From a virus, in IMG/VR virus record IMGVR_UViG_3300007038_000009, positions 1 through 28,286 of that record: DNA of 28,286 bases; one strand, 5' to 3'. The number at the start of each line of letters is the position of its first letter. The stretch's first letter is position 1. Positions 1,489-24,707 of the stretch are shown here, in pieces. The notes beneath the pieces were generated by a model. That model was not told where the DNA came from, did not search any database, and was given only the letters and a program-made list of their open reading frames with translations. The position numbers and the translations under genes were made by a program.

Positions 1489-1698
1489 CTACGGGCCGTG
1501 TGTGCCCGACGTGTCGTTGCGCTCTTGATACAGTCGTGCTCGAAGTAGCGCCGTCGTATAGCGGTCGGCCTCGGGCATTTCGTGGATCTCGGCGGCTGTC
1601 TTGCCCGTCGCGTCTTGGACAAGCGCATACTCCAAACCGAGGCTACTCTGTCGGGCGAAACCCGTCCGCCGCTCCCTTGCGACGTTCTTTTTCCTTCT
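1489..1698 (-). CDS. Frameshifted C-terminal extension of the tail assembly chaperone (GT-like)
   Basis: This frame is open between a TAA (1699-1701) and a TAG (1489-1491), and overlaps the last codons of the upstream chaperone gene in another frame. It has no ATG near its 5' end; the first ATG is mid-domain, and the only early alternative is a TTG. It reads as protein-like sequence: EYALVQDATGKTAAEIHEMP, then ADRYTTALLRARLYQERND. The arrangement matches the gpG/gpGT scheme of tailed phages, where a programmed frameshift appends the T domain that recruits tail tube subunits. A -2 slip on the A5 run at 1688-1692 would join 147 residues of the first frame to 66 residues here, about 213 aa. A +1 event is the alternative. 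Confidence 0.65.
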   Translation of the reverse strand, partial: RRKKNVARERRTGFARQSSLGLEYALVQDATGKTAAEIHEMPEADRYTTALLRARLYQERNDTSGTHGP

Positions 1699-22273: not shown

Positions 22274-22635
22274 TCGCGCACCTCGCTCAGTCGCCGGTTA
22301 CACCAACCGATAAAATCCCCGTCGGGGTTCTCCCGGTCGGCTTCCGTCTTGATGCACTGCTTGAACGCCGCCGTGTCCTCGGGACCGTAGGGACTGCCGG
22401 CCGTCACGCTGTCGAGTCCGGCGTCGGTGAGTCCGTAGCGAACCTGTCCGTCGCCGTCAGTCCACCGGAACACGTCGCCCGACTCTATGGCGTCGTCCAT
22501 CGCTTGCGTGCCCGCGCTCACCGACAGCGGGCCGTTGGCACAGACAACCGTGAACAGTGCCCCGGATTCTATCAACGGCGGTTGGGGGTCGCCCACGTTC
22601 TCGCGGATTGCGCTGCATATCTTTCTGACAGTCAT
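22270..22635 (-). CDS. Unknown protein, possible winged helix
   Basis: 121 aa. SGDVFRWTDGDGQVRYGLTD looks like the wing and third helix of a winged-helix fold, and KQCIKTEADRENPDGDFIGW follows. Cotranscribed with MCM (four-base overlap). Replication accessory or regulator, unproven. Confidence 0.55.
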   Translation of the reverse strand: MTVRKICSAIRENVGDPQPPLIESGALFTVVCANGPLSVSAGTQAMDDAIESGDVFRWTDGDGQVRYGLTDAGLDSVTAGSPYGPEDTAAFKQCIKTEADRENPDGDFIGWCNRRLSEVRE

Positions 22636-24707
22636 GGCGTTTCGTACCTCCCCTGTCGCTCTATGACCGCACCACGCTCTTTGTAGTGGTCCAACGCATC
22701 CCGAATCCGTTGCTCATCAACGGACAGCATACGCGAGAGTTCGTCGGGGAGTAGCGGGCCGTCCCTGTTGAGTGTGTCAATCACTTCGGGCTTGAGTTGG
22801 TCGTACTTCCCACCCGAACCGTTGCTTTGGCGGGCGTCGAAGTTGTCCCCGTTCCAGTTTTGTTTGACCACCGCCCGGGCCAGTGCCTTCGCTCGCTCTA
22901 CGTCTTCGTCAGTGACTTCCTCTCGAAGATGCACGCGGGCGAACGCTATGGAAAGTTTGGCGGCCGTCCCGAGTTCTCGGACAGTCGCCGGGACTGGCAT
23001 ATCCGCGCCTCCCTCCCCGTCCACGCCTTGCGTATGATTCAGTTGGCGAACTTCCGTTGCGTACCACTCTTTCAGCGTCTCGAATTGTTCGTATTTGAGA
23101 ATCGGGTTCACTTCCTCCCGTGCGTACTGAATCCACGCCTGCCCCACGTCAATCGGGACCGGGCGGTCAAGCGTGTCAAAGTCTTCTCGCTCGCCGTACT
23201 CCGCCTGTTGTGCCTCAGTGTAGGACTGGCCGTAAGTCTCGGCTATCTTCGCGTCTTGCTCAGTGTCGGCCGTGTCCTGCATGGTGACTATCCCGTCAAA
23301 GCGGGACAGCAGGCTATCGGAGATGTCCAACTGGCTGGCGATTGAGTCGTTCGGGTTGAACCGGCCGTCTACCGGGTTCCCCATCGCCATGACTGCCGTG
23401 CGGGATTCGTAGGTGGCCGACTGTCCGGCCTTCTCCATGTCGACGACTTGCTCACCTTCGAGCGCGTCGTTCATGTCCGTGAGTTGGTCCGGTCCTTTGT
23501 CTATCTCGTCAAGCAACAGGTGGCCGCCGTTGGCCCGAACCAACAGACCGGGTTTGATTGTCCACTGGCCCTCTCCGAAGTCGTCTTTCACGGCCGCCGA
23601 CGTGAGTCCCACACCCGAAGATAGCGCCGTCGTGGACTTGCTGATACACTTTGGGGAGTAGGCTTCAACGTCTTCCTTGAACGTCGATTTACCCATCCCG
23701 TAGTCACTGATAAGCAACAGGTGGAGGTCGCCCCGGTACGTCGGTCCCTGTTGCACGTCTATCCGGGGAGCGCCGAACAGATAGGCAACAGCGAACTCCA
23801 TTGCCGCATCCCACGCCCCCGTGGTGTGGAGTTGTGGGGCGATACTCTCTGCGAACAGGTCAACCGCGTCGTCACGTTCGGCCAGTTCCGTGAACGTGTC
23901 CTTGTGCTCTGCGATGTCAACCGTTTCGTTATCCCGGTCAAACTCTATGGCCTTCGCTTGAAGTTGGTGGTCAAACAGCAGTTCGTTTTCTCCCCGGCCC
24001 GTCTTCTGGACTCGCTTGACGACACCGTACACCGTGACGGGTTCGCCCGCCCGGCCGACTAAGCCCGAGTCACCGCCCCAGTCTATCAAGTCGTTGAGTG
24101 CGTAGCCCGATAGTTTTCCCTCGGCGTTCTCTGCCGTGTCCGGCCGTGACTGGATTCGGAGCTTGGCGTAGTCCGACCACTGCGAATCATCGTGCGTGCT
24201 CAGTGTGGTAAACGGCCCTTGACGCTCACACCCACCGCATTCGTGTGGCTCTTGGAGTTCCCCGGCCGACGGGTCTTGTGGGATTATGGCCGGTGTCCCA
24301 CACCGCTGGCACTCATAGACGAGCGTTTCAGGAAGGTCCGACGTGGTAGTGACACGCTCAAGCGTCCCCGTAACACCGATGTACTCCCCCGCTTGCTCTT
24401 TGCGAACTTCGCCGGGCGCGTAGCAGTGTTCGTCAATCATCCCGGTCAGACGAACCGTGACGCCCACAAGAGACACGTCAAGCGGGATGTCCACCATAGT
24501 AACCGCTTCCTCCATGAGCGGCAAGAGTTGGTCCGGGTTCTCCCGAACGTCGTCGGCAAGATTCGGGTCGTAACTCCAGAGGTCGGAGAAGTCCACCACC
24601 AGCGACGTGGTATCTCCGAACACCTGGGCCAACTGCGCGATTTCCTCACGATACCGCTCCGACAAGAACCGGACGAACAGGTCCCGTAGTTCCGTGTTTT
24701 GAGTCAT
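22632..24707 (-). CDS. mcm: MCM replicative helicase
   Basis: 691 aa, near full length for archaeal MCM. The N-terminal zinc site is YECQRCGTPAII with HECGGCERQG (residues about 126-158). The AAA+ domain has Walker A ISDYGMGKSTF (near 335), Walker B HLLLDEIDKGP, sensor 1 VMAMGNPVDGRFNP and arginine finger SLLSRFDGIV. The C-terminal winged helix is near 630-690 (PLLPDELSRMLSVDEQRIRD). Walker A is GMGKS rather than the usual GxAKS of cellular MCM. It would unwind the viral origin and load PCNA-linked replication. The 24708-24775 spacer upstream is repeat-rich. Confidence 0.9.
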   Translation of the reverse strand: MTQNTELRDLFVRFLSERYREEIAQLAQVFGDTTSLVVDFSDLWSYDPNLADDVRENPDQLLPLMEEAVTMVDIPLDVSLVGVTVRLTGMIDEHCYAPGEVRKEQAGEYIGVTGTLERVTTTSDLPETLVYECQRCGTPAIIPQDPSAGELQEPHECGGCERQGPFTTLSTHDDSQWSDYAKLRIQSRPDTAENAEGKLSGYALNDLIDWGGDSGLVGRAGEPVTVYGVVKRVQKTGRGENELLFDHQLQAKAIEFDRDNETVDIAEHKDTFTELAERDDAVDLFAESIAPQLHTTGAWDAAMEFAVAYLFGAPRIDVQQGPTYRGDLHLLLISDYGMGKSTFKEDVEAYSPKCISKSTTALSSGVGLTSAAVKDDFGEGQWTIKPGLLVRANGGHLLLDEIDKGPDQLTDMNDALEGEQVVDMEKAGQSATYESRTAVMAMGNPVDGRFNPNDSIASQLDISDSLLSRFDGIVTMQDTADTEQDAKIAETYGQSYTEAQQAEYGEREDFDTLDRPVPIDVGQAWIQYAREEVNPILKYEQFETLKEWYATEVRQLNHTQGVDGEGGADMPVPATVRELGTAAKLSIAFARVHLREEVTDEDVERAKALARAVVKQNWNGDNFDARQSNGSGGKYDQLKPEVIDTLNRDGPLLPDELSRMLSVDEQRIRDALDHYKERGAVIERQGRYETP

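Follow-up and report, generated by a model that had tools for sequence, protein, structure and literature searches.

Tail chaperones made in two frames are known from phage lambda, in which G binds the tape measure protein and T binds the tail tube (PMC5009743). For haloarchaeal viruses, a +1 shift has been suggested for HSTV-2 and a -1 shift for the HVTV-1/HCTV viruses (reviews PMC5009743, PMC8211752), a -1 site, G_GGA_AAT, has been given for Hardycor1 (PMC7911831), and in 2020 TTT-CGC was put forward as the +1 site of the chaperones of HF1-group haloviruses (PMC7230728). Influenza PA-X and the plant amalgaviruses likewise use UUU_CGN for a +1 shift, tRNA-Phe moving from UUU to UUC (PMC5052127). 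No published proposal of a TTT_CGC site for the Haloferuviridae was found in our literature search, and no experimental demonstration of archaeal +1 programmed shifting is contained in the reviews examined.

The locus described here lies in a window of 28,286 bases, which is an entire IMG/VR virus record. Among named viruses, HFTV1, HRTV-4 and HRTV-29 come closest to this one; these three belong to the Haloferuviridae, and their major capsid proteins are 48-50% identical to the window's counterpart. Two overlapping frames, on the minus strand like the other features named below, sit between a tail tube gene (2132-2608), identified by aligning its DNA match to the annotated tail tubes of HRTV-29, HFTV1 and HRTV-4 and by a weak PHROG tail match, and a tape measure gene (1-1143, truncated by the window end) that matches phrog_15478 (E 1.5e-31). 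The zero frame, G (1643-2128), was recognized as an open reading frame with homologues and by its gene position; it encodes 161 amino acids, and its translated C-terminus reads GAADGFRPTE before the stop. The second frame is open from 1698, right after a TAA, to a TAG at 1491-1489, and its portion from 1656 to 1489, the T extension, comprises 55 amino acids and the stop in the +1 register. G and T overlap for 56 nt from stop to stop (1643-1698), and any shift must fall inside this overlap, the same stretch singled out by a preliminary description of the window. The placement upstream of the tape measure gene, which that description had likened to phage G/GT loci, is also borne out, with one small open reading frame (1233-1448) in between; it encodes a hydrophobic product of 71 amino acids, possibly a small membrane protein. 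Elsewhere in the window, we note that 22632-24707 encodes an MCM replicative helicase (Pfam MCM, E 4e-44) and that 21216-21914 matches part of the profile of a C5 cytosine methylase (E 1e-5).

G has homologues in HFTV1, HRTV-4, HRTV-29 and IMG/VR contigs, and the HRTV-29 homologue was named 'tail assembly chaperone' in GenBank by its depositors. Neither G nor T matched a family in Pfam or PHROG, and an AF2 model of G, in which a helix and a beta-hairpin are followed by helices (pLDDT 68), gave no PDB match by Foldseek, so we assign the role from gene order and the annotation of relatives, which together suggest that G is a tail assembly chaperone.

IMG/VR was scanned with alignments of G and of T, and with GenBank included this gave 12 distinct relatives, namely the isolates HFTV1, HRTV-4 and HRTV-29 and nine metagenomic sequences. 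All 12 have the same two-frame layout, and with the window included T lies +1 relative to G in 13/13 sequences spanning the junction; these sequences are mutually related, and this and the other 13/13 counts given below overstate their independence. The T protein shares 36-70% identity with the product of the corresponding register in the 12 homologues, and a search of IMG/VR with T only retrieved contigs that had been recovered with G, the two sets overlapping. Substitutions in T number 1499, 1396 and 2406 at codon positions 1, 2 and 3, and this third-position excess is the pattern of a protein-coding sequence under purifying selection. Judged on these comparisons, the second frame (1698-1489) is a real coding sequence and not a chance opening. 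The preliminary description had read it as protein lacking an ATG at its 5' end, and this too holds: within the overlap, the second frame of the window has no ATG, GTG or TTG. No provirus relatives were found in scans of genome contigs with G and with T. A classical -1 mechanism was considered and rejected, the -1 frame across the T span having stops in 10/13 sequences and the last 40 codons of G having no in-frame heptamer of the form X_XXY_YYZ.

Shortly before the chaperone stop, GGR_TTT_CGC is invariant (1663-1655), and we place the probable +1 site at its TTT_CGC (1655-1660). Among the invariant residues of G with degenerate codons, only the Phe (TTT in 13/13) and the Arg (CGC in 13/13) of this site are without synonymous variation, and every other such residue shows synonymous changes among the 13 sequences. 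T opens with a GCN codon and so partly restricts the final base of CGC; the final base of TTT comes ahead of the shift, where T imposes no constraint. Phe codons elsewhere in the G genes are TTT in 20 cases and TTC in 16 (TTT 56%), and those in the window's genes are TTT in 67 and TTC in 121 (TTT 36%). In two relatives (L008/L009) a zero-frame TAA directly follows TTT_CGC, and the two frames overlap for 26 nt in all. An in-frame TTT_CG is rare, occurring nine times in approximately 14,000 codons of the examined genomes, three of these being the shift sites, and we estimate at about 0.4% the chance that any one gene has it among its nine final codons. BLv36 was read after the site rule had been formed and agrees with it out of sample: the open reading frame in the corresponding position ends GAT GGG TTT CGC TCA AAG TGA with the +1 frame open. 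BLv36 was reached via its capsid protein only, and its G is missed by tblastn with the window's G.

Other features that might accompany such a site were also sought. CGC, which accounts for 82 of the virus's 335 Arg codons, is not rare, and given this usage a hungry A-site codon is not evident at the site. A search for conserved RNA structure around it was negative, RNAalifold giving only four invariant pairs, no covariation and -0.76 kcal/mol, and on these grounds downstream RNA structure was rejected as a stimulator. A Shine-Dalgarno-like GGAGGTGAT was likewise set aside, as it lies about 50 nt upstream, which is too far, and is present in only part of the family.

An in-frame UUU followed by CGN with the downstream frame in +1 is the arrangement seen at UUU_CGN sites, and it is what the sequence of this locus presents. 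We consider it highly likely that a +1 slip of tRNA-Phe at UUU_CGC yields G plus a G-T fusion, and that the virus very probably makes two versions of its tail-assembly protein from one gene. Under this model, most ribosomes would read G to its TAG and produce the 161-residue chaperone. In a minority, tRNA-Phe in the P site on UUU, with CGC in the A site, would move +1 onto UUC, with which it pairs better, the anticodon of tRNA-Phe being GAA. The skipped base would be the C at 1657, and reading in +1 through the 55 residues of T would give a fusion of G(1-157) and T of 212 amino acids. The predicted junction peptide is AADGF-ARQSS; more fully, a +1 junction would read EKERRKGAADGF and then ARQSS, the zero frame being kept beyond the run of A residues as far as Phe157. 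On the model of lambda gpG/gpGT, the task of G would be to coat the tape measure protein and that of T to bring in subunits of the tail tube, and the frequency of the slip would set the ratio of G to GT.

Alternatively, T might be a separate gene, expressed by re-initiation or from its own start with no frameshift. The annotations treat HFTV1 gp37 and HRTV-4 gp65 as open reading frames of their own; a GTG or ATG occurs close to the overlap in several homologues, and in the window a TTG follows TTT at a distance of 25 nt. The position of the start codon is not conserved, however, and ahead of the site none occurs in the window or in one relative (L014); furthermore, the ATG of HFTV1 and HRTV-4 belongs to the site's own GAT_GGG and reads ACG in relatives bearing GAC. 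Since a separate start would also leave the frozen TTT_CGC codons unexplained, we regard this explanation as unlikely, although it survives better than those that follow.

The preliminary description had proposed a programmed frameshift in a haloarchaeal G/GT chaperone, with a -2 slip of tRNA-Lys on GAAAAAG (1693-1687) as its mechanism. The G-T fusion is strongly supported by the comparisons above; the proposed site and the -2 direction are not. The heptamer is present in the window and inside the overlap, the frame was called correctly in that -2 and +1 lead to the identical frame, and several Hafunaviridae chaperones carry '-2' in their GenBank notes. Alignment of homologues, the check that had been suggested, shows both frames to be kept, but the A5 run is missing at the place of GAAAAAG in 12/12 homologues, and we judge the heptamer (1687-1693) irrelevant. 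In L008/L009 the 26-nt overlap, the only possible window for a shift, is without an A-run, so that a -2 slip on such a run is impossible there, and the AAAAA in the HFTV1 overlap sits after TTT_CGC and not at the GAAAAAG place. A -2 event at this heptamer is accordingly very improbable. The direction favored by the evidence is +1, which the preliminary description had mentioned as an alternative without naming its site, TTT_CGC (1660-1655).

Still less probable in our estimation is the reading in which the overlap persists as a conserved C-terminal DGFR motif needed by the protein, T being a relic in decay. ADGFR is indeed invariant at the protein level, but protein selection does not freeze the choice of TTT over TTC, T is under purifying selection, and in two Hafunaviridae-like contigs (L082/L083) the Arg is lost (TTT CCG) while TTT_C is retained. 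Finally, the splitting of a single gene by an error in sequencing or assembly, which is conceivable as a general matter and nothing more, can be dismissed because none of the 12 homologues has one continuous frame and all show both, in three isolates as well as in nine further distinct metagenomic sequences.

A +1 slip at TTT_CGC also bears on how these loci have been annotated. HRTV-29 gp63 (L002:2855-3534) carries a '-1 frameshift' in GenBank that joins it to a frame ending elsewhere, and that frame is not conserved in close relatives; the conserved T of HRTV-29 lies instead in +1 after TTT_CGC. HFTV1 gp37 (L003:3473-3625) and HRTV-4 gp65 (L004:2266-2439) are annotated as genes starting in or near the site, at the ATG of GAT_GGG or just upstream, and are probably the T extension and not independent genes. 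Term searches of the 2025 cryo-EM and infection-cycle papers on HFTV1 turned up neither a frameshift nor these gene products. The records of HRTV-14, HRTV-25, HRTV-27 and HJTV-2 (L041, L042, L043, L044) carry a 'putative programmed translational -2 frameshift'; in each, a TTT_CGY stands in frame shortly ahead of the stop of G, which fits a +1 shift to the same frame. A single rule may thus replace conflicting annotations as -1, as -2 and as separate genes.

The motif is also found in other families of haloarchaeal viruses. In Hafunaviridae and relatives (HSTV-2, HRTV-14, HJTV-2, HRTV-25, HRTV-27 and IMG/VR contigs), an in-frame TTT_C lies a short distance before the stop at 25/25 loci, followed by CGY in 23/25 and by CCG in the two mentioned above (L082/L083), with T in +1 at 25/25; these loci include many close relatives and are not 25 independent cases. 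In HSTV-2, TTT makes up 37 of 249 Phe codons. The G and T of this family are not detectably related to those of the window, and for G common ancestry is unsupported by hhalign, which gave a probability of 0.3. In HRTV-28, the one genome of Suolaviridae, G ends TTT CGT TGA with the +1 frame open, and a search for relatives found none; we note here an unannotated +1 extension at the end of gp33, ahead of the tape measure gene (L049:13093-13300). Two Madisaviridae, HHTV-1 (L051, ~24606) and L058 (~2017), have TTT CCA at the end of G with T in +1, and here T has an ATG soon after TTT CCA, so that a separate start is possible.

This leads us to propose that UUU_C(GN) is a recurrent +1 site in at least three chaperone families without detectable sequence relationship (Haloferuviridae, Hafunaviridae and Suolaviridae), with a UUU_CCN variant in Madisaviridae and L082/L083, a generalization that we hold to be somewhat better than even. 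If it is true, the tRNA-Phe slip of eukaryotic RNA viruses is also exploited on archaeal ribosomes.

Other haloarchaeal viruses have a two-frame chaperone layout like that of the window but have -1 sites with classical heptamers: Hardycor1, HATV-3 (G_GGA_AAC), HATV-2 (A_AAA_AAC), BJ1 (G_GGA_AAC) and phiCh1 (G_GGA_AAT). As separate observations, BJ1 has an unannotated -1 extension past G (ORF61; L053:33177-33281), its G_GGA_AAC lying some 76 nt ahead of the stop, and HGTV-1 (L054:16843-17058) and HHTV-2 (L052:1568-2053) have a T-like frame in -1, the end of G lacking a classical heptamer in both.

With this locus the TTT_CGC +1 rule, a kind of site previously proposed for Hafunaviridae, would extend to the Haloferuviridae. 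For the family that includes HFTV1, whose virion structure has been solved, the comparisons presented here settle the site and direction of the predicted shift, and an archaeal +1 shift becomes directly testable. The HF1 group (Hafunaviridae: HF1, HF2, Serpecor1, HSTV-2) resembles the window in its +1 placement of T, in a TTT_CGC shortly ahead of the stop of G, and in having G/T between the tail tube and the tape measure genes; it differs in its contractile tails, in belonging to another order of viruses, in a G not detectably related to the window's, and in the context of the site, which is TCC, AAG or GAA before TTT_CGY as compared to GGR_TTT_CGC here. Lambda gpG/gpGT occupies the same place in the tail operon and has the same layout of products, a short G and a longer G-T fusion, but lambda shifts -1 whereas the window would shift +1 and has no classical in-frame heptamer near the junction. 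Influenza PA-X and the amalgaviruses follow the scheme predicted for the window, in which tRNA-Phe leaves UUU for UUC while a CGN codon occupies the A site, and differ in using a eukaryotic ribosome and other genes, the influenza shift reaching approximately 1-2% in lysate. The likeness suggests that the UUU_CGN slip may operate on archaeal as well as on eukaryotic ribosomes.
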